From: Planctomycetota bacterium
GTDB lineage: Bacteria; Planctomycetota; Planctomycetia; Gemmatales; Gemmataceae
DNA: 64,000 bases
Assembly: GCA_021809185.1 (NCBI GenBank)
Contig: JAKBAI010000001.1
Span: forward strand, 1-64,000
Reading direction: 5' to 3'
Part shown: in pieces, positions 25,696 through 50,064 of the stretch
How positions within the stretch are numbered: position 1 is the stretch's first letter
Layout of the letters: each line of letters starts with the position of its first letter
Notes under the pieces: model-generated
The model's database searches: none
The model's input: the letters and a program-made list of their open reading frames with translations, nothing else
What the model was told of the DNA's origin: nothing
Made by a program: the position numbers and the translations under genes

Positions 25696-28437
25696 ATGGC
25701 GAAAACAGCTGGGATTTGGGGAGTTGATATAGGTCAGAGTACCGTGAAAGCGGTTCGAGTTGAACTGATCGATGGTCAGGTAAGTGCAACGGCATTTGAT
25801 TTTATCGAACATCCTAAAGTATTATCACAACCTGATGCCGACCCAGATCAACTGATACGTGAAGCGTTAGTGCAATTTCTGTCGCGCAATCCGATCAAAG
25901 GGGATCAGGTTGCTATTTCTATTCCTGGTCAATCCGGGTTAGCTCGATTTGTTAAGCTCCCTCCTGTAGAAGAGAAAAAGATAGTCGATATTGTTCGATT
26001 TGAAGCAAAACAACAGATTCCGTTTCCTCTTGAAGAAGTCGTTTGGGATTATCAGAAGATAGGGCAAGGGACGGTAACCGATGGATTTGCCGTCGATACG
26101 GAAATCGGTCTATTTGCGATGAAACGGGATGTGATAAGCCGATATCTCGGTCATTTTAATGGAGTAGATATCCCCGTTCATTTTGTGCAAATGACACCAC
26201 TTGCCTTATGCAACTATGCGATTTACGATGTATTAAAGCTCAATTCCAGTGGCTTACCTGATTCGGGTGATGGGGAGGAGCCTACCAGTTTTAAAAAGAA
26301 CTGTGTGGTAATTATGGATATTGGAACCGAGGGTTCCAATCTGATAATCACGGATGGTAAGCGAATCATTTGGCAGCGACCAATCCCGTTAGGTGGTAAT
26401 AATTTTACTCGAGCTTTGACCAAAGAACTGAAAATGACCTTTGCTAAAGCGGAACATCTCAAACGAAATGCTGCAAAATCACCAGAATTACCAAATATTT
26501 TGAAGGCGTTGAAACCAGTTTTGACTGAATTTGTCGATGAAGTTCAACGATCGTTGAGATATTTTACGAATACTCATAAAGATGCAAATGTCGTTCGTTT
26601 AATCGGTTTGGGTGGCGCATTTCGATTGCCGGGTTTGCAGAAATATTTGAGCGATAAGTTGCAGCTCGAGGTTCTCCGACCAAGCAAATTTGAAAAGCTT
26701 TTTGGTGATGTTGTTATCAGTAATTCTGTCTTTACGGAAAATATTTTGAGTTTCCCGGTTGCATACGGGTTAGCGATTCAGGGATTGCGCTTATCGCGAA
26801 TCAGTACGAATCTTTTGCCCCCCGAAATTTCCTTCGATCGAAAAATCCGTGCGAAGAAACCTTGGGCGGTCGTATCCGCAGCAACTTTATTATTTGGAAC
26901 AACTACCCTTGCATTTTTCTCGTCGATCCCATTTGAAACGGTAAATGCAGAAAGTTTAGCCAAACAGATTAAGAATGATTCTGATGAAATAAAGCGTTCT
27001 CAGACCGTCAATTCAGAGATATCGAGTAGAGAAAAAGAAGTAGAAACGACAAAATTGGATGTTTTAGCTTTAATTGCAGGTCAAGAAGAACGTATCAATT
27101 GGATTCGGCTGAACGAATTCATTAATCGATCGTTGCCGATGCCAGGTAAAAAAGAGGAGGGGGGAACCCTAGACGATCCAGAACGTAGACCACTTTGGCA
27201 AACTGATGCCGCTCGCCGAGCAACGGAAGTTTACAAAGAACGGCTCAAAGCAGGGATCGATCCACAAATAGGCTGGGACGATTTTACTCGATCGGCCCTT
27301 TGCACCGTCGATTTAGAAGGAGTTACTTGTCGCTATACCGACAATCTCAAAACTTATTTTGAAAAGGTGAAGAAAGATTCCAAAACATACACCGGTGAAG
27401 AATTGGCGGGGATGCTGCCAGAAGATTTGAATAAACCCCCTGAAGGGGCAGGTTGGGTGGTCGAATTAAGAGGAACTTCTTCCTATTTTCAGAAAACCAA
27501 GATCAATGGAGTCGAGACCGATTTCCAGGGGCGAGAGTTTATCTTGGCAACTCTGGTTAAAAATTTGCAAATGGAAGCTAAAGCACTGCTAGCTGCGGGC
27601 GGGGCAACTAATCCCACTACGGCAACAACGGGAAATGCAACAACACCAGCAGGGACACCAGGAACAACACCAGGAGGTAGCAATTCAAATCAGAAAGCAG
27701 ATCCAATCCAAGTGAGTCATGTTTTTCTTTGGGCTGCCTTTGAAGATAAAGAACCTAAATTAAACGAATTCAAGTTTTTGACTAATAAACCGCTTGTCGA
27801 TTATGTCGTAACTGACCCCGTTGCTCCTGGAAGTGCAACAGGGACAACTACCACTCCGACAACAGGAACTCCCACAGGGATGAGCGGCGGAACACCAACG
27901 GGAATGAGCGGCGGCACGCCTACAGGAATGATGGGGGGTATGCCAAGTGGTATGACAGGAGGCACATCATCGGGTACCTCCGCTACAAATACATCTTGGA
28001 CAAGATTAACCAGTGGCGAGGGGGGCGAAGGGTCTGGCCTGATGGCTGGTATGCCTCGTATGGGTGGAAATAAAGCGATCATGGGAGGAGTGCCTAGTTT
28101 GCCATCTGGGGGGATGCTTGGTTCAGGAGGGAGTGGTTCTGGAGCAGGGGATAATCCTTATCGGCTTGGAACTACTGGAACTTCTGAGGGAGGATCGGGG
28201 GGATTTGGCCCAATGCTAGGAGGAGGCCCCAAAGGTTCTTCCGGAAAGAAATCACCATTTTTACCAGGTGGTACATCTCCAATTGGTCCCAATGGTGGGG
28301 GAAATAAAGGTAACGAAGGAACAAATCCAGAAGATTTGGCAAATAAAAAGAAAATCAAAAAACATTCACGATACGAATTTGTGGTTTTATTCGTTTGGAA
28401 GGAACCCACCCCTTCCGATCGATATTTAAAGAAATAA
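25696..28437 (+). CDS. pilM: PilM-like actin-fold ATPase fused to a PilN-like membrane segment
   Basis: 913 aa against about 350 for classical PilM. Residues 1-360 are the SHS2/actin-like PilM domain: GIWGVDIGQSTVKAVRVE, VVIMDIGTEGSNLIITDGK (nucleotide-binding loops), LIGLGGAFRLPGLQKYL. A transmembrane helix at about 389-410 and a coiled coil (EIKRSQTVNSEISSREKEVETT) follow, leading to INWIRLNEFINRSLP, which matches the layout of PilN. The rest is an extracytoplasmic domain interrupted by Thr/Gly tracts and a Gly/Met-rich tract (GTPTGMSGGTPTGMSGG). AAGGGGA precedes the ATG. Type IV pilus or type II secretion PilM-PilN form the inner-membrane platform. The fusion is inferred from topology, not from strong PilN sequence matches. 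Two co-directional single-span proteins follow. Confidence 0.83.
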   Translation: MAKTAGIWGVDIGQSTVKAVRVELIDGQVSATAFDFIEHPKVLSQPDADPDQLIREALVQFLSRNPIKGDQVAISIPGQSGLARFVKLPPVEEKKIVDIVRFEAKQQIPFPLEEVVWDYQKIGQGTVTDGFAVDTEIGLFAMKRDVISRYLGHFNGVDIPVHFVQMTPLALCNYAIYDVLKLNSSGLPDSGDGEEPTSFKKNCVVIMDIGTEGSNLIITDGKRIIWQRPIPLGGNNFTRALTKELKMTFAKAEHLKRNAAKSPELPNILKALKPVLTEFVDEVQRSLRYFTNTHKDANVVRLIGLGGAFRLPGLQKYLSDKLQLEVLRPSKFEKLFGDVVISNSVFTENILSFPVAYGLAIQGLRLSRISTNLLPPEISFDRKIRAKKPWAVVSAATLLFGTTTLAFFSSIPFETVNAESLAKQIKNDSDEIKRSQTVNSEISSREKEVETTKLDVLALIAGQEERINWIRLNEFINRSLPMPGKKEEGGTLDDPERRPLWQTDAARRATEVYKERLKAGIDPQIGWDDFTRSALCTVDLEGVTCRYTDNLKTYFEKVKKDSKTYTGEELAGMLPEDLNKPPEGAGWVVELRGTSSYFQKTKINGVETDFQGREFILATLVKNLQMEAKALLAAGGATNPTTATTGNATTPAGTPGTTPGGSNSNQKADPIQVSHVFLWAAFEDKEPKLNEFKFLTNKPLVDYVVTDPVAPGSATGTTTTPTTGTPTGMSGGTPTGMSGGTPTGMMGGMPSGMTGGTSSGTSATNTSWTRLTSGEGGEGSGLMAGMPRMGGNKAIMGGVPSLPSGGMLGSGGSGSGAGDNPYRLGTTGTSEGGSGGFGPMLGGGPKGSSGKKSPFLPGGTSPIGPNGGGNKGNEGTNPEDLANKKKIKKHSRYEFVVLFVWKEPTPSDRYLKK

Positions 28438-28714
28438 TCGATTCGATTCTGAAAGAACTTGATAACGTATGGAGCTATCTAATTCTGCAAAGAAATACCT
28501 GTCTCCATATGTTCCTCACACGATTATTAAAAGATCTTTTACATGTAGATCGAGCAATAAATTTATAGAGGGTAGTTCAATATGGATGGATCAATTCCCC
28601 TATTGGCAATCATTTAGCTAGAGTAAAGCAATGAGTTACGATCATAAATAAAATGTAAATAACTATTATCTAAATAAATATAAAAAATGATGGCGTGAAA
28701 TACCGGAGTAGAGT

Positions 28715-30730
28715 ATGGATCAAGAGAAGTTAAAGAAGTATCATTTCTGGTTGCTTTTAATACCGTTTACTATTTTTTGCATAGTAAGTTGGTTGGCGGT
28801 TGTGTTTGGAGTTTCGGAAGCAACAGCAGACCAGATTGCGGCGATCGAAAAGCATGAAAAAGAGCTTAAAAATGCAGTCACCAGTGCGAAAAGTCAGACG
28901 TTGAGTGTGAAATTAAATGCGCAAAAAGACGAGCTGATTTCACGTAGAACCAGTATGTGGAAAATTGCTTGGGATGCACAAAAGGATATTTTCTTTTGGC
29001 CTAAAGCGTTTGGTCAACGTCTTGCTGATTTGCAAAAGCGCCCTTTTGGAGCACCGATCCCAGAGCGAGAAATATTGAGCCAGATTAGAAACAACGATTA
29101 TTACCTCAAAGAATATCTCGATCTGGTGGAAGGGGTAGTCCCTATGAAATTCAAGGATGGCTGGACGAATGTGTTATCCTATGTCAAAGATTGGGAAACC
29201 CGATTGAATCCCGAATCAGAAGAGGTCTGGTTGGCTTTAGAGGATTTATGGGTACAAACTCAGCTTGTCTTGATTGCAGATCGAGTGAATCACAAAGCGG
29301 CACAATTTGTTATGGTTGATCCCGAAAATGCCAAGAAGAGTCCACTCCATCGAAAGTTTCGAAGTAGAAATTGGGAAATCGATCTGCAGGTGGGAACCAA
29401 TGAGAAAAAGCAAAATGTACTTCAAGCCAAGCTAAAAAATATTACAGATCATTTGCAAATCATGGGTGTTGGGAACCAAATGTATTTGAAAGTCTGGTTG
29501 GCAGCAAATGAAGATCCGATCGAATTTGTCATCGAAGGGGATAATGTCAAAGCAGGTGAAGAGATTGCAGTAAAGCCATTGAAAAAGCATATTCTCTCTC
29601 GATCCCCTGAAGAAATACTTCAGGTGGAACAGATGTTTGATGAGAGGACCGTACCGATTAAGCGAATCGATAAAATATCGTTAGGATATCTCAGTTCACG
29701 AACATCGATCTATCAGCTTAAAATGGCTCCATTTAGTCAAAAAGTGGTCGATGAAATAGCGAAACAGAATGCGGCGACGACCCCTACGACGACTCCAACA
29801 ACAGGTGGTCCTGGCCCTATGGGCGGAATGCCAACTTCTGGAGGCACGCCCCCAGTTGCCACAGGATCGACGGGAGGTGCTAGCGCTACAGATACGGATA
29901 CTACTCCACTCGGCTTGAAACGAAAACGTTATCTCGATACCACCGAACAGGTACGCCGATTACCTTTTGGGATGGTTTTGATTGCGGATGAATCGTACTT
30001 TACCGATATACTCGAAGCAACTGCCAATTCCCCTTTACGGATTCAGTTAACACAATTTCACTGGTCGCGATCTCATGATGCGATGTCTTATAGCACCAGT
30101 AATCGTGCAACTTTAACTTCTGGAATGAATTTGCGATCGGGATTTCCAGGCATGGGTTATCCAGGTATGGGATTCCCAGGAGGTAAAGTTCCGCCTATGA
30201 TACGTCCCGGAGGGGGATCGCGTGGTCCTATGAATCCGATGGGTGGTATCCCTGGAGCAAATCCCCCTTCCGATGAACCTGGAATCCGGGAGAATATTGC
30301 CGATAATTTATTGGAAATTTCCTTATACGGAATCGCTAATCTTTACCAGATGTTCCCAGAAGGGCTGAAAGTAACGGAGCCAAAGACAACTCAGATAGGG
30401 GCGCCAAAAACGCAATCGCCATCCGGTGTCACCCCTCCTGGAAATCTTGCGAATCCCCCTACGAATCCTCCTACCAATCCCCCTGGAAAGATCGACCCTA
30501 AATCGAATATACCATCCAAATCGGGGACTTCTGTAGATCCAAAGGAACCTGGCAAAACTCCTCAACAAAAGGCTCCAGATAGTCCTATGGTTCCTAAAAA
30601 TTCAGCTGGGGAGATCCCAAAATTGGAGAATGATAAAAAGGGAAGTAATCCGCTACCTGGGAATAAAGGTCCGGCAAACCCAAAATCGGAGGGTAATCCA
30701 TCTAAGACTCCCGTTGTGCCAGGGAAATAA
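28715..30730 (+). CDS. Single-span envelope protein of the PilM unit (PilO-like?)
   Basis: 671 aa, no named family recognised. Topology: short cytoplasmic N-terminus, transmembrane helix at 12-33 (LLLIPFTIFCIVSWLAVVFG), coiled coil to about 75, then a large soluble domain. After a Thr/Gly/Pro linker comes RRLPFGMVLIADESYFTDILE, reminiscent of the ferredoxin-like fold of PilO/GspM, and then a Gly/Met tract (FPGMGYPGMGFPGG) and a Pro/Lys-rich tail with NPPTNPPTNPPG. GGAG precedes the ATG by 8 bases. Its place after PilM-PilN suggests a PilO/PilP-like role (inference). Confidence 0.65.
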   Translation: MDQEKLKKYHFWLLLIPFTIFCIVSWLAVVFGVSEATADQIAAIEKHEKELKNAVTSAKSQTLSVKLNAQKDELISRRTSMWKIAWDAQKDIFFWPKAFGQRLADLQKRPFGAPIPEREILSQIRNNDYYLKEYLDLVEGVVPMKFKDGWTNVLSYVKDWETRLNPESEEVWLALEDLWVQTQLVLIADRVNHKAAQFVMVDPENAKKSPLHRKFRSRNWEIDLQVGTNEKKQNVLQAKLKNITDHLQIMGVGNQMYLKVWLAANEDPIEFVIEGDNVKAGEEIAVKPLKKHILSRSPEEILQVEQMFDERTVPIKRIDKISLGYLSSRTSIYQLKMAPFSQKVVDEIAKQNAATTPTTTPTTGGPGPMGGMPTSGGTPPVATGSTGGASATDTDTTPLGLKRKRYLDTTEQVRRLPFGMVLIADESYFTDILEATANSPLRIQLTQFHWSRSHDAMSYSTSNRATLTSGMNLRSGFPGMGYPGMGFPGGKVPPMIRPGGGSRGPMNPMGGIPGANPPSDEPGIRENIADNLLEISLYGIANLYQMFPEGLKVTEPKTTQIGAPKTQSPSGVTPPGNLANPPTNPPTNPPGKIDPKSNIPSKSGTSVDPKEPGKTPQQKAPDSPMVPKNSAGEIPKLENDKKGSNPLPGNKGPANPKSEGNPSKTPVVPGK

Positions 30731-30876
30731 TCTTATCGGTGATGGTTAGCGGAAAACCAATTACCGATTTTCATAAAAATATATGGAAATGTAAGATTCA
30801 TCAGATTCATTATTTGCCCAACATGCCCAAACTTTGTTTACATATTCGTTAGTTCTAGATTAGAGAGGTTTGTTTT

Positions 30877-33186
30877 ATGTCTTTTCAAGAAAGAATTATT
30901 GAAAAGGGAGAAAAATACGGTTTATATGCCTGTATAGGTCTAACCATTCTTCTTTTCCTTTTCGGAGCATATTCTGCTTTTTCTGATGGCATCGATCCCG
31001 AAGCGAAAGCAAAAGAATTACAATCGAATGTTCAAAGGATCACCAGCGCGATAACTAACCAAGCTGCAGAACCTAACCCACTAGATAGTGAATTTCGCAA
31101 GCCTTTTGTGATTGATACAGTTGCTGTAGCTCCCAATCCTCATCATCCCTTTGATCCAATCGCTCAGCCTGATAATAAACGAACCAATCCTACGATGTTA
31201 GCGGTTCAGGAAATTCAAACGGATGTTGTGTTGGCGAAAATTCTCTCTGTGGATATTCGAGATTTAGGCGATAAAGTCATGGTTGGGGTATTACGTCAAA
31301 ATCAAAAAGGTCAGGTTCAGGAGGAAGACCGTAAAAAATTATTTAAGAATCTTGGGAAAAAAGTCAAAAAAGGTAGACCTCCTCAACCAGCAAATCCCGG
31401 AAATGGTCCTGGAGGAGCAGGTGGAACTGAGGGATTGGGCGGTGGCCCTCCCGGAATGGGAGGAATGATGGGTGGCCCTCCCGGTATGGGATCTGGGATG
31501 AAAGGTGGTCCTCCGGGTATGGGATCTGGGATGATGGGTGGTCCCCCTGGAATGGGATCTGGGATGAAAGGAGGCCCGGCTATGGGAGGAATGATGGGTG
31601 GTCCTCCTGGAATGGGAATGACCGGCGGAAGAGGAGATTCTTCATCAGGATATTATGATTCCGGTGCACAGCGAATGGAAGTTTCTTATGTTCCTGTTGA
31701 AGATGAAAAAGCCTTGGAAAATAAAGATTTGGCGTTAACCCTTTATCCCAAGCGATTCATTGTTATTAACGCCTCGTTCCCTTACCGAGATCTTCTCGAA
31801 AAGTTTCAAAAGGCATTGAAACTCAATTCGGTCGACGAATTGCTTGCTCAACCAGATTTGTTACCGGCTTTCCGAGAGATTAAACTGGAGCGAGCGGAAA
31901 TGCTTCCCAATGGTAAATTATCCGAATGGCACGATATTCCTTGGAAGGAACATTTTATCGATATTTACCGTCGAAAAGTTGCTAATCAACCTGAAGAAAA
32001 TAATCTCGAATTTGTCATGTTGGACCGTTCCAATAACTTGGTTCTCCCACTTCCAGAAATACTGGATAATCAATATCCAACTATTCGGATGCCGATGCTT
32101 CGCCAGACGATCGATAAATTCAAAGCTGCCAATAAAACTCCTCAACCTGCTAAATCAGCAAATAAACTGAAAGGGGAAGGAAATATTTTTGGTGATGACG
32201 AGTTTGCTTCAGGTCAGGGGACTAATCCTGGAGATTTCTTCGGCGGTATCAACCCCGCCATGGCTAATCCTGGACTCAAGAATCTGCCCGGTTTCATGAG
32301 TGGTAATAATGGGCCAGGAAACAACATGGGTGTTGGAAATTCTGGATTTATTATGAATTCCGTAACCGATGTCCCTGATTATGTTCTTATTCGAGTTGTG
32401 GATAGCGATCCCAATCTGCGAGCTGGTGTCGCTTACCGCTATCGAATTCAATTAACGATCAAAAATCCAAACTTTGGGAAAAAAGATCTGGTTTCACAAC
32501 CTTCGGATGCAGAGATTAAGGATATCGTTGGACCATGGTCGACTGTCGACAACGTTATTTCACTTCCTCGAGAATCTTTCCTCTATGCTGTCGATCCATC
32601 GACTCAAGAGAAAAAAGCGAGCGACCCCAAGGCGAAACAAGCGGTCTCTAGCTTGAAACCAGGTCAAGCGATGATGCAAATTCAACGCTGGCTTCCTCAG
32701 ATTAAGATCGATACCTACAAAGAACCATTAGGAGATTGGCTGGTTGCAAATACGATAGTAACTGAAGGAACCTATTTTGGGTCGAAAGAATTGGTCGAAG
32801 TTCCCTTATGGTCGTCCGAAAGCAAGAACTTTGTTATTCGCAAAACGATGGCGATTCGCGATGCAAAGTCTAAAAATCCTGTTCGAGGTGTTCTTGTCGA
32901 TACTACCCGAACGGATATGATTGTTGCGGATGTTGAGGGGGGGGATTCGAGCATGGGGAGTTCCGCAAATCCAAACAAGAAAGTTACCGATTCCTGCGAT
33001 CGTGAGATTCTGCTCATTAGTGATGATGGTTCTATGGTTCAGGTTTTTTCCGAATTAGCGGGAACGCGAAATGCCGATCGTAAAAAACGGGAAGACAAAT
33101 GGAAGAACTGGATCAATAATACCTCTGATGAAGCTCGAATGGATGGAGGAAATGCAGGAAACAATGATGAAAGATTTAATCGCTAA
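30877..33186 (+). CDS. Single-span envelope protein of the PilM unit with Gly/Met-rich tract
   Basis: 769 aa, no named family. A transmembrane helix at about 15-36 (YGLYACIGLTILLFLFGAYS) is followed by periplasmic-type sequence. Residues about 168-254 are almost only Gly, Met and Pro (GGPPGMGSGMKGGPPGMGSG type repeats). Two further soluble domains follow, with the second containing DVPDYVLIRVVDSDPNLRAG. GAGAGG precedes the ATG. The stop codon is embedded in a 17-bp tandem duplication, and an intrinsic terminator follows at 33227, ending the three-gene unit. The role is inferred only from position: a partner of the PilM-like ATPase. Confidence 0.62.
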   Translation: MSFQERIIEKGEKYGLYACIGLTILLFLFGAYSAFSDGIDPEAKAKELQSNVQRITSAITNQAAEPNPLDSEFRKPFVIDTVAVAPNPHHPFDPIAQPDNKRTNPTMLAVQEIQTDVVLAKILSVDIRDLGDKVMVGVLRQNQKGQVQEEDRKKLFKNLGKKVKKGRPPQPANPGNGPGGAGGTEGLGGGPPGMGGMMGGPPGMGSGMKGGPPGMGSGMMGGPPGMGSGMKGGPAMGGMMGGPPGMGMTGGRGDSSSGYYDSGAQRMEVSYVPVEDEKALENKDLALTLYPKRFIVINASFPYRDLLEKFQKALKLNSVDELLAQPDLLPAFREIKLERAEMLPNGKLSEWHDIPWKEHFIDIYRRKVANQPEENNLEFVMLDRSNNLVLPLPEILDNQYPTIRMPMLRQTIDKFKAANKTPQPAKSANKLKGEGNIFGDDEFASGQGTNPGDFFGGINPAMANPGLKNLPGFMSGNNGPGNNMGVGNSGFIMNSVTDVPDYVLIRVVDSDPNLRAGVAYRYRIQLTIKNPNFGKKDLVSQPSDAEIKDIVGPWSTVDNVISLPRESFLYAVDPSTQEKKASDPKAKQAVSSLKPGQAMMQIQRWLPQIKIDTYKEPLGDWLVANTIVTEGTYFGSKELVEVPLWSSESKNFVIRKTMAIRDAKSKNPVRGVLVDTTRTDMIVADVEGGDSSMGSSANPNKKVTDSCDREILLISDDGSMVQVFSELAGTRNADRKKREDKWKNWINNTSDEARMDGGNAGNNDERFNR
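31430..31640 (+). repeat. DNA repeats encoding the Gly/Met/Pro tract
   Basis: Near-identical 36-bp class units built on GGTGGTCCTCCGGGTATGGG encode GGPPGMGSGMKGG repeats. The nucleotide copies differ mainly at third positions, so the tract is expanding or being homogenised while selection keeps the residues. Confidence 0.8.
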
Positions 33187-33204: not shown

Positions 33205-33226
33205 TTTTATTATTCGCCCTATCTCA

Positions 33227-33263
33227 TTATTGAGCAATCTAAAATTGCTCAATAATTTTTTTT
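33227..33263 (+). terminator. Intrinsic terminator of the PilM unit
   Basis: TTATTGAGCAAT (33227-33238) pairs with ATTGCTCAATAA (33244-33255), a perfect 12-bp stem with a 5-nt loop, followed by an eight-T run. Confidence 0.92.
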
Positions 33264-36296: not shown

Positions 36297-38479
36297 TTTT
36301 CCTTGTTTGTGTCAAATCGAAGCTTGGGCTACAACTTAAAAGTTGGAAGTTTTATTCTATTTTTCTGATGGATAGTTGGAATAGAACTTGTCGCAAGCTC
36401 AATGAAGTTCTTTGGCGATTAAAGTATTTCATAGTCATAACTTTATAAAATTAAGAAGAAAGCAGATTTTTCTTGAGATTTTTTAAACAATTGGCGCAGA
36501 AATCGCATAATTTTATGTAGAAAAATTGGAATTGTGGATAATTTAGGGCATATTTAGTGAGGATGTTTGTGAAATCATATGTAAATAGCTCTAAATTAAT
36601 AACTTAGGATTATAGAAATATGATTTCAATCTTCGATTGTTTAAATCTTTTGATTTGATTGAGCAAGCGATGGAGGTTGTAATAAATTGTTGAATGCCAA
36701 ATATTTAAGCATAATTTGATCGAAATTTAATCCAAAGAAAATGTTATGATGGAATACAGATAATTGGAGATAAAAAATCCAAATAAATAATTTTCAAATA
36801 AATACTTTGAATTATTCAAAACTAGTATCTGCAGCAGCTGTTAGAATATTGAATACATAAATTTAAAACCGATTTGTCAGTGATTTTAGTGGTTTCGTTG
36901 AGCCTAATATAAGAATCCCCCGAACTTAGAAATGGAACTTAGAAATGGAACTTAGAAATGGAACTTAGAAATGGAACTTAGAAATGGAACTTGCGATGCA
37001 AGATTAAAATTCCGTCCGGATAAATAAAATCGATTAATTATCTTCCAAATTTGTTTCTAAATTGGGCGGTAAATCGATCAAGAATATTTAGTGAATTCTG
37101 ATTTTGAGAACGATTGTTTAATGTCTTAATCTTTGCGAACGATGGATTTTTAATAAATTATGCTAAATACTTATGTATTAATGAGATAGGATGAGTAAAG
37201 TAAAGGTTGAGCTAAGGAGAGGTTATTATTGAATATAATTTTATCTTTTAGGTTTTATTGGACTAATAATCCAATATCTGAAGAAGATATGGGAATGGAT
37301 TTTACAACTAATCGATTACAACAAAGCAATAAAGAAATAAAGATTTGACCCAGGTAGTAAAATCAGTTTGTAATTAAAAAGATATTTCAAGAGGTGCGAT
37401 TTATATTATCTTTTATTTGGTTTAGAAAGACCATAGGTTTTTGAAGAAATCGTTTTTTCTTATATGGAAGGAACTTGAGATAAATAAATTCGTCAAAGGA
37501 AGTGGGTTTAGATTTCTGCTTAAGGGATAGAAGTATTTTAGTAGAAATATCTTGGTCCTCCGCTCTTTTAAGGTTGATTTGGAATGGGGTAGTTGTTTAG
37601 TGTGAAATTTGGAGCATTCATGGTACCCTTGATCTATCGGCAAATTCTTGTAAATTAAAGACTTTGGAAAAATATTAGGAATATATTCGAGGGGTTAATA
37701 AGTGAGCTTTAGCCAAACCTGCAATATTGAATGTTGATCAAGAAAATTTAAGAGAGGTTTAAAGGAAAAAAGAACTATACCAGTAAAATTATTAGGTATA
37801 ACGAAGAGATTTGAAGCGTAATCATCGATTAGAACTGAGTGGATGAAGGGTCGGGACATTAAAATTAAAAGAAAAATCGTGCAGAAACAAAGAAATTTAA
37901 TGAAAGATTTGCGAAACGGATTGATTTTGAATTTAAATTTCGCATTATAAGAGAGAGTTGATTACAGATTATCGATCGCAAATAAAGAATATTTTGTTTT
38001 GTGGATCATCAAAAAATAAAACAATCGCCAAAAGTGAGTTGAAAAAGCTCAATCAATAGTCAATCGTCTAATTTTTTAACATTGAATTTGTTCATGAAGT
38101 ATTTGATTGGTTCTAAATGATTGTTATGTAATAAGTTCTATCTTGATTAATCGATCTTATCCTTGAGCAATTAAATTTAAATGTTCTCTTTCAAGTAGAT
38201 TATTCCTTAGTGATGAGTTTATTAATAGACGGTTAAGAAAGATGTTAGAGAGATTCTTGACCTCATTGACACTAAGCAATATTTGCCTTAAACGATAATT
38301 TTGAGACGATGTATAAAATCTTAAAAAAAATCTTGAAAAGCGGAAAAATCGCATGAAGGTTTGGAGCGAGTAATGGAATTAAAAGTAAATCTGGGAAGAA
38401 GTTGCGGTGATTTCGTTTGTTGTTTCGGAATCGGTGTCAAATAGTTGATCAATCTTAACCTTAAACAAAAAGGAAAACT
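36297..38479. other. 2.2-kb AT-rich region without recognisable genes
   Basis: Separates the hypothetical gene from the polysaccharide locus. Apart from the 13-bp repeat array it holds only short, low-complexity open frames rich in Phe, Lys, Asn and Ile that look like AT-rich noise. A long leader or unknown non-coding RNA for the polysaccharide operon cannot be excluded. Confidence 0.55.
36922..36992. repeat. 13-bp direct repeat array, 5.5 copies
   Basis: GAACTTAGAAATG is repeated five times with no mismatch (36922, 36935, 36948, 36961, 36974), then a 6-base partial copy. There are no spacers, so it is not CRISPR. It could be a variable-number tandem repeat or an array of binding sites. Confidence 0.95.
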
Positions 38480-40171
38480 GTGCTTTTAAGTGATCTTTCC
38501 TATCTATTGATCATTCTTTGCGTAAATGCTCTCGTGGCAGTTCTGATGATCCCTATACTCCGAAGGGTTGCTTTTCGGATTCGATTGCTGGATTGTCCTG
38601 ATAATCGTCGAAAGTTGCAAAAAGAACCTATCCCTTTAGTTGGTGGGATTGCAATTTTTTGCTCACTAATGATCGTTCTTGGACAATTTGCCTTAATTGA
38701 TGATCGAGTTCGCGGTTGGATAGCTCAAGAAACTGGTTTGCCGATGATTCTTCTGGGGATTTTTTTCATAGTGATTCTTGGCATTTGGGATGATTATAAA
38801 GGGATGCGTGGTCGACATAAGTTGATTGGTCAGCTGATTGCCATCAGTTTACTTTTATCCTCAAATTCTTTTCAAATTAACGTGGTTTTTGTTTTGAACT
38901 ATCCGATCGAATTAGGGTTCATGGGTTATGTCTTTGCGGCTTTTTGGTTGCTAGGATGTATAAACGCCATTAATTTATTGGATGGAATGGATGGGTTAGT
39001 TGGCAGTTTTACCTTGATAGCATCTATTACTATTGCCATTTTAGCTGTTTTGACGAACCAGATTTTGATCGCACTGATTGCATTAGCGCTTGCTGGTTGC
39101 ATCATAGGATTTTTGCGATATAATTTACCCCCTGCACGCATCTATCTGGGCGACTGCGGTAGTATGCTTTTGGGGTTGCTGATCGGTGCGCTTGCTTTGC
39201 AAGGGGGGATGAAGAGTTCGACCGCATTGACAATCTTTATTCCGATCGGGTTGCTAATTCTACCCATTTTTGATTCTTGTGCGGCTTTGATTCGGCGAAA
39301 ACTTACTGGTAGAAGTATTTACGAAACCGATCGGGGTCATCTGCATCATTGTTTACTCAATGTAGGGCTCAATAAAGTTCACGTGCTTTTGTTGGTGGTA
39401 TTATTTTCGGTTTGTACTTCGGCGGGAGCGATACTCAGTCTGATTTTTCAGAATGATATTTTTTCCATTATCAGTATTGGAATTGTCCTGATTGGTTTGA
39501 TTGCCAATCGATTATTCGGGCATGCGGAATTGTTTCTAATCAAACAACGAGTTTTATCTATGGCAATCGCTTTTCGACACGGTCATTTGCCGGATCGGCG
39601 ACATTCGTTAGAGGTTCGATTACAAGGGAGTGCCGATTGGCCGTTCATTTGGGACCATTTGACCAGAATGGCCGAAAAACTTAATCTTCGACAGGTTTGT
39701 TTAGATGTCAATGCTCCAGTTCTGCATGAAAATTATCATGCAAAATGGAATCGGTTTGGTGAAGAGTCGCATCAAACTCTCTCTTCATGGCGAGCAGAAC
39801 TCCCTTTGTTTTTGAATGATCAAGTGATTGGCCGATTGACCGCTGTGGGTAATCCTGATCAGCATTCGATTTGGGAAAAGCTCAGTTATTTGACTGATAT
39901 GGTTGAACATGCAGAGCTAGCGGTATCTCAGGTCTTTGAATCTTCGTTGATTCCCAGCAGCGAATCGAAAGCTGGGGTTAGGATAGAAGCAACCAAAGAA
40001 GCAAAAGACTATTCTACTTCAGAATCTGGTTTTGGTTATGTGCCTGTATTGGCAAAATCGGCTAAGTCAACAAAATCATTGTCTTTAGCTTCATCATTTT
40101 CTTCTGTGTCCGATGAGGAAGATTCGCCAATTTCAGAGTCAAGGTTTGTTGAAATAGCGCAGATTTCCTGA
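38480..40171 (+). CDS. Undecaprenyl-phosphate sugar-1-phosphate transferase (WecA/MraY family)
   Basis: Integral membrane enzyme, 563 aa, that starts exopolysaccharide or O-antigen synthesis by moving a sugar-1-phosphate from a UDP-sugar to undecaprenyl phosphate. Family motifs: DCPDNRRKLQKEPIPLVGG near the N-terminus, GIWDDYKGMRGRHKL, NLLDGMDGLVG, YLGDCGSMLLG and the histidine motif RGHLHHCLL. About eleven membrane helices fill the first 350 residues. An extra cytoplasmic domain of about 200 residues follows, ending in a Ser-rich tail. The start is GTG 38480, seven bases after AAGGA. It is the first gene of the WecA-kinase-phosphatase run. Confidence 0.92.
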   Translation: MLLSDLSYLLIILCVNALVAVLMIPILRRVAFRIRLLDCPDNRRKLQKEPIPLVGGIAIFCSLMIVLGQFALIDDRVRGWIAQETGLPMILLGIFFIVILGIWDDYKGMRGRHKLIGQLIAISLLLSSNSFQINVVFVLNYPIELGFMGYVFAAFWLLGCINAINLLDGMDGLVGSFTLIASITIAILAVLTNQILIALIALALAGCIIGFLRYNLPPARIYLGDCGSMLLGLLIGALALQGGMKSSTALTIFIPIGLLILPIFDSCAALIRRKLTGRSIYETDRGHLHHCLLNVGLNKVHVLLLVVLFSVCTSAGAILSLIFQNDIFSIISIGIVLIGLIANRLFGHAELFLIKQRVLSMAIAFRHGHLPDRRHSLEVRLQGSADWPFIWDHLTRMAEKLNLRQVCLDVNAPVLHENYHAKWNRFGEESHQTLSSWRAELPLFLNDQVIGRLTAVGNPDQHSIWEKLSYLTDMVEHAELAVSQVFESSLIPSSESKAGVRIEATKEAKDYSTSESGFGYVPVLAKSAKSTKSLSLASSFSSVSDEEDSPISESRFVEIAQIS

Positions 40172-40234
40172 TAAGATTAAATTGGATAATCCGTATCTTT
40201 CACCAAGAGCATTCGAAAATATTAAGAGGATACC

Positions 40235-42589
40235 GTGGCCGATTTTTTAGATTCAAACACCAGTAGTATGGATGCCAAACCCAAAGTTCAGATTAATTTA
40301 CTCGCTGTTTTTTGGCGGAAAAAAGCGATCTTGTTCTTGGGATTGGTAATAGGTTTGATTATTGGCTCGATTCAAAATTCTCAAAAGCCTGCTATTTTTC
40401 AATCAGCGACGAAGCTTATTGTTCTTAAAAGACGTTCAGAACCGGTTCCAACATCGACCGGAAGTAGTAGTTTAGATTTTAGGAATGCTTATGTCGAAGA
40501 TTATGTTTCGACTCAAGAAATTATTATCCGTTCCCACGAAGTGCTTCAGCTCGCGGCAGCTCGTTTAAAGTCGATGCCGATGAAGCAACCTCCTGCAGAT
40601 TATGTAGGCTATATTTCCATGGGAATGGGTCTCACTCGAATTTCTGCAGCTGGGTCAACATCGAATAATGGAACTAATGTTTTAACGATCACTTTCACGG
40701 GAGGAAATGCTCAGGATTGTGAATATGCTGTTAATTCTATAGTTGATGGTTATCGCGATTTTATTGCTAGTCTTTCGAAAACTGCCACCAGTGAAAATCT
40801 CAATGCACTCCTAAAAGCTAGGGATAAAGACATAGAGGATCGAACTAAGCTTCAAGACTCTTTGAAAGATATAAGAAAAAAAATCCGAGAATCCCATATA
40901 GAAGTATCCTTGGATGATCTAAAGAACCGAAGTGGAGTTCTCGATACTCGATTATTTGAATTGAGTAATCGTAAAATTGAAATCGATAACCAAATTGCAT
41001 TGATTACAAGGCAAAGAGATAAAGTAAATCCAGAGGAATTATTGTATCTTTTAGCATTACCACAAGATCGGAATGGGTCTTCTCCACTTGCATCGAATCA
41101 ACGACTTCCTTTTGCAAACGATAAGTTGCAAGAATTGGAAGATGAGCTTAACGATAAGATGGTTTCTTTTGGGCCGGATCATCCGCAAGTAATCGTTCTC
41201 CAAAAGAGAATCGATCGATTAAATAACCGTCTTCTTGGGATGGAGAAAGAGCCGTTTCGCCCTAATCCGAAACAAAAATCACAATCTTCTGTCATTGATC
41301 TATATATTCAAAAACTGAAATCCGAAACGGAAACGATTACTTCTCAAGAAGAAAGTACAAAAAATTCCCTAAAAAAGATACGAGTACAATTGAATGAGCT
41401 TGAGCCATTATTGAATGACGAACTGAATGCGAAGAAATCACTGGAAGAGCTGGCCAAAGAGATAACAACATTAAATGGTCGATTGGAGGCTTTAGATTTA
41501 TCTAAAGATTCTTCAGCCTACGATGCTCGAATTTTAGATCCCGCTGGTCCAGGTGTCAAAATTGGACCAAACTTAATGAGGGGATTAATGTTGCCAGCGA
41601 TGATGGGGATGATTCTAGGAATTGGGATAGCGCTATTAGGGGAATTTACCGATAGGAGTTTCCGCAGTCCCGAAGATATTCGTCAACGATTGGGAGTAGC
41701 TGTTATTGGTCATGTTCCTCACCTTACAGCACCTGAAACGATTGAGCAGACCGGATTGTTGCTTGATCCACTGCTTTTAACCTATCACAATCCGAAATCG
41801 ACCGAAGCAGAAGTTTTCCGAGGGCTAAGAACGTCTATCTATTTCAGTACACGAGGTAAAGGTCATCAGGTTATACAAATAACCTCGCCAAACCCTCATG
41901 ATGGGAAATCGACAACGGTGGCTAATCTCGCTATTTCGATTGCCCAATCAGGGAAGAAGATCATTTTGATTGACTGTGACTTACGCCGACCACGAGTTCA
42001 TGAACTATTTGGAATTACAAATAAGGATAAGGGTTTTTCATCTGTCTTAATGGGGGAGGAGAAGCTAGAGGATGCTGTTCAAAGTTGCGCGGTTCCAGGA
42101 TTAACGATTTTACCCTGTGGTCCCCGCCCTGCGAACCCAGCAGAACTCTTGACCTCGGCACGATTTAAAGAATTCATTGATCAAGTGCGGTTAAAGTATG
42201 ATTTTGTTCTAATCGATAGTCCCCCGCTTCTGGCGGTAACCGATCCTGCTGTTGTAGCTTCCCGAGTCGATGGGACAATTCTGGTCATTAATCTGATGAA
42301 AAATAATCGATCCTCTGCGGAGAGGGCGAGAGATATCCTTGTCTCGATCGGTGCGAATTTATTAGGAGTGGTTGCTCAAACACCCAAGAAGAATCAGGTT
42401 GCGGGATATACTTATGGTTATAGCTATAACTATGATGCCTATTCCTATTCTTATGGATACGCAGAAGAATATGTCAAAAATGATGTTAAAGAAGATGCTT
42501 TTGAGGAGTCTCAAACAGGTGGAATTAAAAAGCTACTAAAGGTTAGAAAAAGAAATAGAGTAGATCAAGTTCAAGAAGGAGTTAAATAA
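40235..42589 (+). CDS. Polysaccharide co-polymerase with BY-kinase domain (Wzc-like)
   Basis: 784 aa. The N-terminal Wzz domain has a transmembrane helix at about 33-52 and a periplasmic coiled coil to about 430, then a second transmembrane helix near 440-460. The tyrosine autokinase domain has Walker A (PHDGKSTT), A' (IILIDCDLRRPR) and B (FVLIDSPPLL). The C-terminal Tyr cluster (YTYGYSYNYDAYSYSYGY) is the autophosphorylation site. It controls polymer length and export together with the outer-membrane Wza protein. GTG start after AGAGGA. Six bases separate it from the phosphatase gene. Confidence 0.95.
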   Translation: MADFLDSNTSSMDAKPKVQINLLAVFWRKKAILFLGLVIGLIIGSIQNSQKPAIFQSATKLIVLKRRSEPVPTSTGSSSLDFRNAYVEDYVSTQEIIIRSHEVLQLAAARLKSMPMKQPPADYVGYISMGMGLTRISAAGSTSNNGTNVLTITFTGGNAQDCEYAVNSIVDGYRDFIASLSKTATSENLNALLKARDKDIEDRTKLQDSLKDIRKKIRESHIEVSLDDLKNRSGVLDTRLFELSNRKIEIDNQIALITRQRDKVNPEELLYLLALPQDRNGSSPLASNQRLPFANDKLQELEDELNDKMVSFGPDHPQVIVLQKRIDRLNNRLLGMEKEPFRPNPKQKSQSSVIDLYIQKLKSETETITSQEESTKNSLKKIRVQLNELEPLLNDELNAKKSLEELAKEITTLNGRLEALDLSKDSSAYDARILDPAGPGVKIGPNLMRGLMLPAMMGMILGIGIALLGEFTDRSFRSPEDIRQRLGVAVIGHVPHLTAPETIEQTGLLLDPLLLTYHNPKSTEAEVFRGLRTSIYFSTRGKGHQVIQITSPNPHDGKSTTVANLAISIAQSGKKIILIDCDLRRPRVHELFGITNKDKGFSSVLMGEEKLEDAVQSCAVPGLTILPCGPRPANPAELLTSARFKEFIDQVRLKYDFVLIDSPPLLAVTDPAVVASRVDGTILVINLMKNNRSSAERARDILVSIGANLLGVVAQTPKKNQVAGYTYGYSYNYDAYSYSYGYAEEYVKNDVKEDAFEESQTGGIKKLLKVRKRNRVDQVQEGVK

Positions 42590-42594
42590 TACGA

Positions 42595-43374
42595 ATGTTG
42601 CCTTTTGTCGATGTTCATGTTCATCTATTGGCAGGATTGGATGATGGACCGAAAACTCAAGCGGAAGCGGTCGAAATGTGCCAGATGTTGGTTGCAGAAG
42701 GGGTTGGTCTCAGCGTAGCATTATCGCACCAAAATTATCTTTATCCCGAAGTTACCCCAGAGCGTATTTTGCAATCGATTGCAGAATTACAATCAGAATT
42801 GACTGCCCAACAGATCGATTTGGAACTTGTTCCCGCTGCTGAGATTATGATCGATCCTGATATTGAAGTGGATTGGGCAGAAAATCGCTACTTGAGTATT
42901 GCAAATCAACGGCAATATGTCCTTCTTGAACAACCCAATAATTTGTATATCGATATTCGATCGGTGGTAAACTTTTTTCGAGAACAACGAATTCGGCCAA
43001 TTTTAGCCCATGCCGAACGCACGAACGAATGGCTTTATGAACCAGGAATAATCGAGGAGTTGATTTCCATGGGTTGCCTGGTTCAAGTTTCCACAAGCAG
43101 TATTACTCAACCTGTTGATCAGCGAATGGAGAGAGCCTTACGAAGCTGGTTTCGCCGTGGGATGGTTCATGTGCTCGGAACCGATGCTCATTCGCCTCGA
43201 CGACGTCGTCCACTCTATGCCCAAGCGGTTTCTGTGCTTCGTCGCTGGATTGGCGAAGCTCAAACGGAACAGATTTGCTATCATAATGGCAATGCGGTAT
43301 TGCGTGGGTTACCTCTGAGATTGATCAAGCCAATACCAAAAACTTCCAGTTGGTTTAGCAGGATTTGGAACTGA
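42595..43374 (+). CDS. Manganese-dependent tyrosine phosphatase, CpsB/YwqE type
   Basis: PHP-family phosphatase, 259 aa, that dephosphorylates the BY-kinase encoded just upstream, allowing polymer cycling. Metal ligands are in VDVHVHLLAGLDDGP (D6, H8, H10, D16-D17), AEIMIDPDIEV, ILAHAERTNEWLYEPG and LGTDAHSPRRRR. Spacing from the kinase stop is only 5 bases, and the nearest AGGAG lies about 16 bases upstream of the ATG, inside the kinase gene, so translational coupling is likely. The gene ends the plus-strand run; the export lipoprotein converges from the other strand. Confidence 0.93.
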   Translation: MLPFVDVHVHLLAGLDDGPKTQAEAVEMCQMLVAEGVGLSVALSHQNYLYPEVTPERILQSIAELQSELTAQQIDLELVPAAEIMIDPDIEVDWAENRYLSIANQRQYVLLEQPNNLYIDIRSVVNFFREQRIRPILAHAERTNEWLYEPGIIEELISMGCLVQVSTSSITQPVDQRMERALRSWFRRGMVHVLGTDAHSPRRRRPLYAQAVSVLRRWIGEAQTEQICYHNGNAVLRGLPLRLIKPIPKTSSWFSRIWN

Positions 43375-43456
43375 CCCAATTCCTGCATCTTCTCTTAGTG
43401 GTTGAAAGCGGTTGTAAATGGGCTGTTGATTGATCGTGGGCGATCGGGTTTGAAGA

Positions 43457-44818
43457 TTATGGACCTGCTAGGTTATTGGTCGCATTGAAGTCTGGTTTAT
43501 TTACAATAGTCCATAGTAAGTTATACTTAAAGATAGTGCTAAAGTATCTACCAAAGGATTCTTCGGGGCGTTCTTGTAAGATAATATAGTCTCCTGGTTG
43601 AATCAGGATTCGTTCCCTCGGATCCCGCAAAGCTAAATTCAGGTCAACGCGAATATTTACTTGTTGACCGTTTGGTGTTTTCCTTAAAACATTGATTAAG
43701 CTTGGGGACGGATTACCAAGCCCCGTATTAACAACAGTAGCAATGAAAAATGCTTGTCCGAATCCACCGTTAACCAAAGGTCCGCGAACATAATTTACTG
43801 CTTGAATAACGTTCAAGTCATAATCCCTCGGGAGTAGATATTGACCAGCACCGAGAAGACCTCCCGTAAAGAAGAACTCTGCATCACGAGATTGAATATA
43901 AACTATATCGCCATTATCAAGGATAACATCTTCCGGTTGAAAAGGAATATCTTGACCAGGCTGCAATTTCAGTGGGATAGTAAGGATGTCAGGCAAAGTC
44001 TTGCCATCCCTTTTGCGCGTGTTTTTTCGGTAGATGGTTACCTCGTTTTTTGCATCCGTTCCTGGCAGACCACCACTCTTCGCCAAAGCGGAAAACACGT
44101 CATTTTCGTAAATAGGCAAGTCCAGAGAAAAACCGGTCCCTTTCTTATTGCTTCCTACAATAGCTCCAGCATTACCAAAACTTGGACCTATGGCATAATT
44201 AGTTGTTCCTGTATCTTCTCGAATGACCAAGACATTATATTTTCTGGGTTGAATGAGCGAAACAAGGATTCGTTCATTGCCATCTTTGAGAATCTTCTTC
44301 TTCTTCGTGTAGGCATCAACAATTTTTGCTCGAACCTCTTCCAAAGTCAACCCTTTGACATCCAAGGGTTCGATATAAGGCAAAATCAATTTGCCTCCAT
44401 CTTGAACTTGAATAGGAGTGCCAAGAGCGGTAGAGATGGGGCCTGGTCCAACGGCAGGGGGCTGAATAGGGATCGTCCCCCGATCACTGAGAACCCCTTC
44501 AATCACAATACCCAAAATGTCCCCAGCATCGACCAGATGATAATCTGGTTTCTTCTGCCGCAAAAGATTGAAGGGTATCGATTTCAGGTTTTCGCGCGAA
44601 ATTCCCTTCAATTCATCCGGAAGCCTTCGAACAGGAATCCCATCCGCTATCGGATTTGTGAACGATGCACAACCATTACTTCCAACAAAAAAACAAAACA
44701 TCAAGCAAGTGAAAATGGTCGATTTCCCACGATACCGTTGAATTTTGAGAAGATCCAACATCTGGAGTGTAATCGATTCAGGTATTCTCAAATTCGTCTT
44801 CCAGTACATCATTTCCAC
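43457..44818 (-). CDS. Outer-membrane polysaccharide export lipoprotein (Wza-like)
   Basis: 453 aa, Poly_export plus SLBB family. A hydrophobic stretch (IFTCLMFCFFVGSNGC, Cys50) looks like a lipoprotein signal, so the mature protein should be lipid anchored. YHLVDAGDILGIVIEGVLSD opens the Poly_export domain; SLBB-like repeats follow (YNVLVIREDTG, ALAKSGGLPGTDAKNEVTIYRK, AVNYVRGPLVNGG). It forms the outer-membrane pore that, with the BY-kinase protein, moves polymer out. The frame opens with GTG 44818; ATG at 44812 or 44809, with AAGGAAGTGG just upstream, is as likely. It converges on the phosphatase gene. Confidence 0.88.
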   Translation of the reverse strand: MEMMYWKTNLRIPESITLQMLDLLKIQRYRGKSTIFTCLMFCFFVGSNGCASFTNPIADGIPVRRLPDELKGISRENLKSIPFNLLRQKKPDYHLVDAGDILGIVIEGVLSDRGTIPIQPPAVGPGPISTALGTPIQVQDGGKLILPYIEPLDVKGLTLEEVRAKIVDAYTKKKKILKDGNERILVSLIQPRKYNVLVIREDTGTTNYAIGPSFGNAGAIVGSNKKGTGFSLDLPIYENDVFSALAKSGGLPGTDAKNEVTIYRKNTRKRDGKTLPDILTIPLKLQPGQDIPFQPEDVILDNGDIVYIQSRDAEFFFTGGLLGAGQYLLPRDYDLNVIQAVNYVRGPLVNGGFGQAFFIATVVNTGLGNPSPSLINVLRKTPNGQQVNIRVDLNLALRDPRERILIQPGDYIILQERPEESFGRYFSTIFKYNLLWTIVNKPDFNATNNLAGP

Positions 44819-45040
44819 TTCCTTGGGTCGTTAAAAGGAATTGTCGCATTTTTGAGTAAATCGTCTTTAAGTAAATCATATTCAGCGCAAAACCCTACGT
44901 TGGTGGTATTACGATTTCAACTCAAAGATCCTTTGTTTGCTGAGCGATTCTATCTTTGTATGAAGCAATTGATCGATCGAATTTCCGAAATTTTTGATCG
45001 TAAAAGCTCAGCGGATTATTCCGCTCTATCTTTCAGATTA

Positions 45041-45634
45041 CTACGGTTCTTTGTCGCCTTTGTTGCCTTTGTCGCTTTCCTTGGTCAAATTCTTATCCAG
45101 CTTTTTAGGAGTGGGCAGCGATTGATTGGGGATATCCTCAGGCGACTCTGTAACATTATTCTCTGTTTTGCTACCTGTATTCGTTATTCCTTTGTTGTCG
45201 GCTTTCGCAGGGATCAATACCGGAACAACCAAGGTCTCTCGGATTCCGCTGGCTTTACCCATTTGAGCACCGACCGTGTATCCAGAAAAGTATTGTTCGA
45301 TCGCTTCATACCCCGCAGGGTTCAGATAGCGATTTCTGCGGTATTTTGGTGGGGGAACTGCAGGAGGTTCCCCTGTTCCTCCACGATCAAGGAAACCAGC
45401 GTATCCATCTATAAATCCGTCATGGAATCCTTGAGAGGATGCCCATTCTGGATGTTCTTTGGCGAAATCTTTCCAAGCATGCTTAGCGTATTTTTTGGTT
45501 TGGTGGGTCAGTTCCAGATTGTTAAACAACTGAATTGGTTCATTAATTGTATTACGGGCGCCGTAATATATCTGATTACAACCAAAGTTCATGCAAACAA
45601 TCTGGAGGAAGATCAAACCACTAATTTTCTTCAT
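45041..45634 (-). CDS. Hypothetical small lipoprotein of the polysaccharide locus
   Basis: 197 aa. A short hydrophobic N-terminus (KKISGLIFLQIVCMNFGCN) suggests a signal or lipoprotein peptide with Cys19 as possible lipidation site. The core has WASSQGFHDGFIDGYAGFLDRGGTG and ATGTGA-free protein-like sequence YLNPAGYEAIEQYFSGYTVGAQMG, and the C-terminus is a Lys/Asp-rich tail. The family is not recognised. GAGG precedes the ATG. It lies 222 bp upstream of the export lipoprotein on the same strand, so it may be co-transcribed and act in export. Confidence 0.62.
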   Translation of the reverse strand: MKKISGLIFLQIVCMNFGCNQIYYGARNTINEPIQLFNNLELTHQTKKYAKHAWKDFAKEHPEWASSQGFHDGFIDGYAGFLDRGGTGEPPAVPPPKYRRNRYLNPAGYEAIEQYFSGYTVGAQMGKASGIRETLVVPVLIPAKADNKGITNTGSKTENNVTESPEDIPNQSLPTPKKLDKNLTKESDKGNKGDKEP

Positions 45635-46345
45635 CGACCATCCTCAATCAATAAATCGATAATTCCAAACATTCTGGTTATCGACGGTTCGATTGGGGAA
45701 AGTTCATCGATTATTCCAAAAATGTGGGGTATTCGAGTGAGGACTGCAAATAAATGCCAAAATATTCTAAATGAGAATATGAAGTGTTTGCGAATTTGAG
45801 AGATTTAGGGTGATTTAGGTATTCTGGATAAATAGGATGAGATAATATATTTAAAATATTTGGAGAAAATGGGTTGATATTATACGAAAAGTGTTTAGGA
45901 TAAATTATAGTCGTATAAAGGAGATTTTATCGTGGTACTATGATATTAACTTCAAAATTTTCTATTTTTTAATTTTTAGTCTTAATTTTCAGATATTTTG
46001 ATAATTTGACTTATAATGTGTAAATCAATTATTCAAATAATAAATTAATAATTGATATGAAATTTCGGCCTCTAGATGATTATTCAAATATAAATTAAAT
46101 TGTTGTTGATAAGATTTTTGTCAAAAATAAAATGTTTGTTTGAATAATTCTTTTGATCATAGAGAGTAAAAGTTGATCGTCTTTTAGGAGTCGAGCTGAA
46201 TTAAACAAGTGGTTCTGCAACGATTGTAAGGGGCGAAATCAATTAATGGAAGACCGTCAATAATTGTTTTGACGATCTTTGTAACCCACGGAAGAAATTT
46301 CAGTTTTAAGGATATTTAGTCAGTTTTTATAGGGGATTTTTTGTT
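45635..46345. other. AT-rich spacer before the beta-helix gene
   Basis: About 710 bp, divergent, extremely AT-rich in its middle. No gene or strong structure recognised. It presumably holds promoters for the small lipoprotein (minus) and the secreted protein (plus). Confidence 0.55.
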
Positions 46346-48556: not shown

Positions 48557-48692
48557 TCGAATGACAGGGATTCAGCAATGATGCATTATTTGGGATTTTC
48601 TTTATCATTAAGATATTTGATATTCCTTGTTTTGCATCCTTGATTGGATCCTACGATTTTTAATCACTCTAATTTTTGGTTTGTGGATTTTT

Positions 48693-49418: not shown

Positions 49419-49564
49419 AATGAATGCTTTATAGGCAAAAATTAAAAAAATGTAAATAAATTGAGAAATTAGTTTATAAATAACTGTAAAAAGTGATATA
49501 AACCTTTCCTCTTCTTAAAATTAGATGTATAATGATTTTGATAATGAATTTGGAGAATTTTTAA

Positions 49565-49849
49565 ATGAGAAGTCAGTTAGGTGGTTGTTGTCAGATAAAA
49601 TCGTTGGTATGTTTGAGCTTAGCCGTTGTTTTGGGGTTGGTGATGTTGTTTACATCATTCGGCACTAACTCTTCTGTTTTAGCCACAAACTTTAGTGATG
49701 ATGTTTCAAGCTTCAGTCGAAGTGGGTTGATTGCTCCAGAACCAACTCTTGCAAAATCGAATAAACAGACTACGACTCAAGATTCTGAAGTTATCCCTGT
49801 TTTGAATTGGCAGGAAACGAGGGGACGTGGAACTCGCCCAGCTTTCTAA
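49565..49849 (+). CDS. Small secreted protein, unknown
   Basis: 94 aa. GGAG stands 10 bases before the ATG. A hydrophobic signal sequence (LVCLSLAVVLGLVMLF, about 15-30) ends near a plausible cleavage site (VLA-TN). The mature part of about 55 residues is polar, with a basic terminus (ETRGRGTRPAF). The family is not recognised. Its place between the protease and the ligase suggests a function in the polysaccharide locus. Confidence 0.6.
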   Translation: MRSQLGGCCQIKSLVCLSLAVVLGLVMLFTSFGTNSSVLATNFSDDVSSFSRSGLIAPEPTLAKSNKQTTTQDSEVIPVLNWQETRGRGTRPAF

Positions 49850-50027: not shown

Positions 50028-50064
50028 TTGATTATTCGTGATATCATACTTTTTTTGATCAACT

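Follow-up and report, generated by a model that had tools for sequence, protein, structure and literature searches.

Which machine is encoded by three adjacent genes of a Gemmataceae genome, the first of which carries a complete PilM domain and all of which code for long Gly/Met/Pro tracts? The genes are located in a stretch of 64,000 nucleotides of a Planctomycetota contig (JAKBAI010000001.1, assembly GCA_021809185.1), here called the window, and their products are referred to as P1, P2 and P3. A first-pass annotation, made from the sequence alone, had read them as a lineage-specific platform with PilM fused to PilN, in which PilO and PilP were replaced by larger proteins, and as the best candidate in the window for an undescribed machine.

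Layout and linkage of the three genes

The ORF listing of the window and its translation yield three real ORFs, all on the + strand (Table 1). On this strand, neither gap between the genes contains a terminator-like site. The terminator-like hairpin that marks the end of the unit is a consensus match only, as the total number of such sites does not exceed that in shuffles.

Table 1. Positions of the three genes, their predicted domains and tracts, and the end of the unit, in window coordinates.
Feature	Residues	Position	Strand	Basis
P1, putative PilM-PilN fusion protein, 913 aa		25696..28437	+	ORF; PF11104; TIGR01175; NF045709
P1, cytoplasmic actin-like PilM domain	9-362	25720..26781	+	PF11104 alignment; PDB PilM chains
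P1, NLLP motif (TNLLP)	371-375	26806..26820	+	equivalent of PilN N-terminal motif; motif scan of homologues
P1, predicted transmembrane helix	about 391-411	26866..26928	+	hydrophobic stretch; conserved in alignment
P1, coiled coil and PilN-like exported core	412-700	26929..27795	+	hhalign to PilN profile
P1, Gly/Met/Pro/Thr tract	707-846	27814..28233	+	tract filter
P1, predicted last strand of the core, C-terminal of the tract	888-905	28357-28410	+	
P2, putative enlarged PilO-type protein, 671 aa		28715..30730	+	ORF; AF2; PilO fold and profile match
P2, predicted extra beta-sandwich domain	about 212-323	29348..29683	+	AF2, pLDDT about 95 or more
P2, predicted ferredoxin-like beta-alpha-beta, PilO type	404-452	29924..30070	+	AF2; profile register
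P2, Gly/Met/Pro tract, between beta2 and beta3 (last strand 532-544)	461-532	30095..30310	+	AF2; tract filter
P3, single-pass membrane protein with exported part, proposed secretin link, 769 aa		30877..33186	+	ORF; AF2; linkage
P3, Gly/Met/Pro tract	158-275	31348..31701	+	tract filter
P3, C-terminal beta-rich region (FN3-like edge, then conserved P3 core)	503-725	32383..33051	+	AF2
Terminator-like hairpin and T-run, end of unit		33226..33256	+	13-bp stem, 40 bp past P3 stop

Of 80 named loci, 50 show the trio in order; most of the others are truncated at a contig end or were missed in ORF calling. As these loci were picked via PilM, the unbiased test of linkage is a genome-wide search with P3. 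Matches were found in 30 of 119 planctomycete genomes, and in 28 of these the long PilM fusion is no more than about 4.5 kb away from the P3 match (G063 and G141 being the exceptions). The linkage of the three genes that had been proposed at first thus holds both in the loci of the Planctomycetia and in the search across the phylum. The unit is conserved across this class, with compact counterparts across the phylum. One genome, G013, carries the trio at C56; in another, G004, which is 79% complete, the unit was not found. Among the nearest relatives, no further neighbour gene is conserved beside the trio.

In five loci (L055, L129, L133, L136, L137) a secretin gene directly follows the unit, while the secretin of the window's genome is located on another contig. 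The same row is seen in the compact units L207, L208, L212 and L213, where it consists of PilMN (584-637 aa), P2 (295-357 aa), P3 (266-550 aa) and a secretin (720-926 aa).

Elsewhere in the window, no ORF of at least 80 aa is listed for the 2.2 kb at positions 36297-38480, a region with a GC content of about 0.30 and a strong G-over-C skew. It has no Rfam match and includes a 13-bp unit repeated perfectly in tandem (5.5 copies, 36922-36992). Tandem repeats with a period of 12-15 bp are found at 1291, 4989, 6957, 8990, 36922, 55913 and 61875, several of them between ORFs. The adjoining stretch (38480-52706) holds a putative exopolysaccharide cluster, with a glycosyltransferase-like protein, a Wzc-like ATPase, a CpsB/CapC phosphatase, a beta-helix protein and an O-antigen ligase-like protein with TPRs.

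Domain make-up of P1, P2 and P3

The 913-aa P1 had been described as a full PilM domain followed by a transmembrane helix, a coiled coil and an exported part, which is borne out by PF11104, TIGR01175 and the hydrophobic stretch. It matches PF11104 at 5e-35 (121.4 bits, cut-off 27) and, over residues 8-363, exceeds the curated cut-off of the PilM model TIGR01175 (157.1 bits, cut-off 133). The family profile, A1, also matches the PilM chains of the PDB (3jc8_Ma, 2.5e-39; 2ych, 2e-31; 5eou, 3e-20). In PilM-PilN structures, PilN binds PilM through its N-terminal NLLP motif. P1 contains such a motif ahead of its single transmembrane helix, as is characteristic of PilN. The motif is found between the PilM domain and the transmembrane helix in 79 of 92 homologues (1.2% by chance in shuffled sequence), and L373, P375 and I378 are invariant in profile A1.

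For the exported part, whole-protein comparison with hhalign gave weak results and was therefore repeated without the tract columns and alongside column-shuffled controls. The tract-free core of P1 then matched a PilN profile made from 30 planctomycete PilN sequences with a probability of 85 and a score of 40.5 (maximum of 20 shuffled controls: 17.9), a score to which shared coiled coils may contribute, since column shuffling loses their periodicity. PilN and PilO are known relatives, and their two profiles, which give the scale here, match with a probability of 92. Taken by itself, the ferredoxin part of P1 gives no PilN match (probability 0.4), so that it is the coiled coil and what follows it that carry the match of the core. 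No match was obtained between P1 and the Pfam model of PilN (PF05137).

P1 also aligns with the Amuc_1101 family model, NF045709, over residues 1-479 (7e-56, 190 bits). The compact PilMN of L212 (603 aa), from another class, does so over nearly its full length (1.4e-77, 262 bits), its residues 30-595 covering model positions 34-597 of 608. As both bit scores are below the equivalog cut-off of 650, these proteins represent a related family and not the Amuc_1101 equivalog. Taken with the NLLP motif and the PilN profile match, the full-length match of L212 makes the suspected fusion of PilM and PilN in one chain well supported at the level of sequence. Such a fusion is not new in kind, because the Amuc_1101 model has a corresponding length and GspL a corresponding domain order.

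P2 and P3 each have one N-terminal transmembrane helix, as first noted, both in sequence and as a helix in the AF2 models. In the AF2 model of P2 (57 sequences, pLDDT 74.9), this helix is followed by a coiled coil, a helical part, a beta-sandwich, a beta-alpha-beta unit, the disordered tract and a last strand. When the fold was compared to the PDB with Foldseek, the highest probability was obtained for PilO of Pseudomonas aeruginosa (2rjz_A, 0.97), with an E-value of 0.18 that ranks fifteenth, below unrelated matches with lower values; further matches were 5uvr (0.77) and 3jc8_Oa (0.63). The P2 profile without inserts matched PilO in hhalign with a probability of 88 and a score of 42.9 (shuffled maximum 17.1), part of which may again be supplied by the coiled coil. 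PilN was matched more poorly, and P2 residues 404-452 align in register with positions 124-166 of the PilO profile. AF2, Foldseek and hhalign together thus find in P2 the transmembrane helix, coiled coil and ferredoxin-like fold of a PilO protein.

None of the 57 family members matched PF04350 (PilO) at E 0.1, and the family has no confident match in Pfam, NCBIfam or PDB sequence searches; the Amuc_1100 model matches just two members (E 0.012). Compact forms of P2 (295-406 aa), without the long tract and the beta-sandwich, are homologous to the P2 of the window (E 2e-12), and their C-terminus aligns with PilO. The fold and profile matches and this homology identify P2, as judged from model and profile, as an enlarged relative of PilO, and not as the replacement of PilO that the first-pass annotation had assumed.

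In P3 the transmembrane helix is followed by the exported part (AF2, pLDDT 73.7). Its C-terminal core is common to the P3 family, with shared G, V and D columns in the alignment, and in the compact P3 of L212 the Pfam fn3 model is found above its cut-off (1.9e-7). Whereas the comparison with PilN and PilO profiles was positive for the P1 core (PilN) and for P2 (PilO), the P3 profile matched neither in hhalign. The family (52 members) has no confident match in Pfam, NCBIfam or PDB sequence searches; taken singly, P2 and P3 also gave no noteworthy family match. Foldseek returned only low-probability PDB matches for the P3 model, mostly immunoglobulin-like, with no PilP among the 50 matches listed. 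PilP is a lipoprotein with a small beta domain that contacts the secretin. Since the P3 gene sits between those of P2 and the secretin where these are linked, its position suggests that P3 bridges P1 and P2 to the outer-membrane secretin. A common origin of the ferredoxin-like parts of the three proteins was also considered; it is not supported by the profile comparison.

The Gly/Met/Pro tracts

The presence of Gly/Met/Pro tracts in all three proteins was confirmed, P1, P2 and P3 being the sole ORFs of the window that pass the tract filter. P2 has a second tract at residues 361-400. Among the relatives, tracts are present in 43/71 P1, 51/61 P2 and 38/53 P3 proteins, or 132 of 185 unit proteins from several orders, against 2 of 463 other neighbourhood ORFs (one being a linked secretin); as family members are related, these are counts of non-independent cases and no probability. 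The AF2 model of P2 has the tract in the hairpin between beta2 and beta3, within the PilN/PilO-like domain. For P1, the strand pattern of the sequence places its tract at what is probably the same hairpin. The insertions of Met-rich low-complexity sequence in these two partner proteins seem to share one position in the fold.

The compact L052/L063 relatives of P2 lack the tract at 461-532, and most compact distant members of the unit have no tracts at all, so that the tracts are probably a later elaboration in the Planctomycetia. They likely act as spacers or as segments of weak (self-)association, and the proteins may co-assemble through such sticky tracts. Tracts of the same Gly/Met(/Pro) type were also observed in two small unrelated proteins of the same genome. 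One (L061:13462-14259) sits in a Tad pilus cluster, while the other (L062:8410-8935) is a putative lipoprotein cut by a contig end.

It is quite possible, if not the favoured view, that the tracts are shared merely since Gly/Met/Pro repeats expand readily in these genomes, without any common function. The tracts are partly coded by tandem repeats in the DNA (24 bp at 27865-27931 in P1; 33 bp at 31441-31617 in P3), and both the absence from most compact relatives and the like tracts in two unrelated proteins would fit. Such expansion does not readily account for the difference in frequency between unit proteins and their neighbours across several orders, nor for the kept position in the hairpin. 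This view bears on the tracts only and does not conflict with a pilus base as the product of the genes.

Known counterparts and a proposed pilus base

The search for pilB, pilT and pilQ elsewhere in the genome, which had been suggested at the outset, was successful. PilB, PilT, PilC and pseudopilin genes are clustered on contig C37, and a further PilB-PilC pair, a second PilT and a Tad cluster are also present. A giant secretin of 1549 aa (L056:5637-10286) is encoded on contig C343, so that motor genes and secretin are all on contigs other than that of the unit. Its secretin domain is restricted to the C-terminus (1338-1528), leaving about 1300 residues without a Pfam match; it matches PilQ (1e-23), GspD (6e-23) and Amuc_1098 (4e-12). 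Secretin relatives were found in all 31 genomes searched, and in other genomes their open frames extend to about 2200 aa. PilT-family retraction ATPases occur in every relative searched, two being over the cut-off in the window's own genome, which hence contains the type IVa set of PilB, PilT, PilC and secretin. Pfam finds neither PilN (PF05137) nor PilO (PF04350) in this genome. With one PilM, the single PilM-fusion copy, and no separate PilN or PilO found, the unit is therefore left as the sole candidate for a platform to go with PilB, PilT and PilC.

Other arrangements of PilM were seen elsewhere. Many genomes of other classes (L155-L184, G031-G146) combine a long PilM fusion with a separate PilM of about 350 aa, and L184, from the window's class, encodes a short PilM, with PilN and a PilO-like protein in genes of their own. 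In L064:7641-10229 (G029), an 862-aa ORF has an N-terminus resembling a J-domain and a zinc ribbon, joined to a PilM-like region that has diverged.

With the canonical type IVa system (PilM-PilN-PilO-PilP and PilQ), the PilM fold, the NLLP motif, the PilN- and PilO-like domains and PilB/PilT/PilC are shared. In the planctomycete unit, however, PilM and PilN are fused, PilO is enlarged by the helical part and the beta-sandwich, no PilP was recognised, and the third protein is P3, at most a possible replacement of PilP. Closer likeness is found in Akkermansia, where the Amuc_1098-1102 proteins are abundant in the envelope and have been termed pilus-like (PMC5332112). MUL2 (amuc_1099-1102, with amuc_1101 as PilM) has been tied to attachment to mucin and fucoidan, in a survey of the locus that covers the Verrucomicrobiota (PMC13174399).

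The comparison with Akkermansia is based on gene order and the NCBIfam models NF042912, NF038287 and NF045709. The Akkermansia locus and the compact planctomycete units share a PilM with an extension of PilN length (608-position model), a small PilO-like neighbour, a third protein and a secretin, and these units follow the order and rough sizes of Amuc_1101-1100-1099-1098 (608 and 805 positions in the outer models). In contrast, P1, P2 and P3 of the window are larger, tract-bearing and either below the equivalog cut-offs or without a match. Planctomycete secretins match the Amuc_1098 model weakly, that of the window's genome is unlinked and about twice as long, and no Amuc_1102-like pilin was seen beside the trio. 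The trio is likely the base, at the inner membrane, of a machine of type IV pilus kind and the planctomycete counterpart of Amuc_1101-1100-1099-1098. The earlier wording of an undescribed machine was too strong, because this counterpart (Amuc_1098-1102/MUL2) has already been published (PMC5332112, PMC13174399) and is covered by NCBIfam. The unit is a variant, spread across the phylum, of a machine that is known, and not wholly new.

GspL of type II secretion also carries a PilM-like and then a PilN-like domain in one chain. A type II secretion-like platform for protein export, with P1 of GspL type, a GspM-like P2 and no retractable pilus, would agree with this domain order, with the pseudopilin-type genes beside PilB and PilC on C37 and with the GspD match of the giant secretin. 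We consider it improbable, as P1 is above the PilM cut-off with no GspL model listed for it, the P2 profile prefers PilO over PilN, and retraction ATPases of the PilT family are present. That the trio is instead a lineage-specific envelope machine, unrelated to pili in function, which recruited a PilM-PilN module is highly improbable: P3 and the tracts are without known counterpart in the libraries searched and the secretin is unusually large, but the unit holds the only PilM and the only PilN/PilO candidate beside the PilB/PilT/PilC set, and the compact units of other classes match the Amuc_1098-1101 arrangement.

From the domain make-up, gene linkage and tract enrichment described above, we infer how the complex may form and what its proteins and tracts may do. 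In the preferred reading of a pilus base, P1, P2 and P3 would constitute an inner-membrane alignment subcomplex. The PilM domain of P1 would reside in the cytoplasm with the PilM-binding NLLP motif tethered to it, after which the chain would cross the membrane to the coiled coil and the PilN-like domain. The enlarged PilO, P2, would pair with the PilN part of P1, while the single-pass P3 would most likely bridge both to the outer-membrane secretin. Motors and filament parts (PilB, PilT, PilC, pseudopilins) and the giant secretin would be supplied from elsewhere in the genome. The Planctomycetia would have enlarged the unit by flexible Gly/Met/Pro tracts, in P1 and P2 at the beta2-beta3 hairpin, which probably serve as spacers or weak self-association segments across the wide periplasm.

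Planctomycetes take up macromolecules by a system that, like their crateriform structures, has been described as still uncharacterised, and the fibres of these structures, seen in Planctopirus and Gemmata, bind dextran (PMC5394234). A role of the unit in polysaccharide capture is plausible. The more specific hypothesis that the unit and the giant secretin form the core of the crateriform structure with its dextran-binding fibres (PMC5394234) is tentative and, for now, rather unlikely. If true, a pilus-based glycan-capture machine would be common to Planctomycetota and Verrucomicrobiota, and the tracts would allow the platform to bridge the wide periplasm of planctomycetes or to condense across it. 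The four linked families (PilMN, P2, P3 and the giant secretin) are direct candidates for the planctomycete uptake or crateriform system, tied to the glycan-binding pilus locus of Akkermansia, and the question of uptake now becomes testable by knock-out where genetics exists, e.g. in Planctopirus limnophila.
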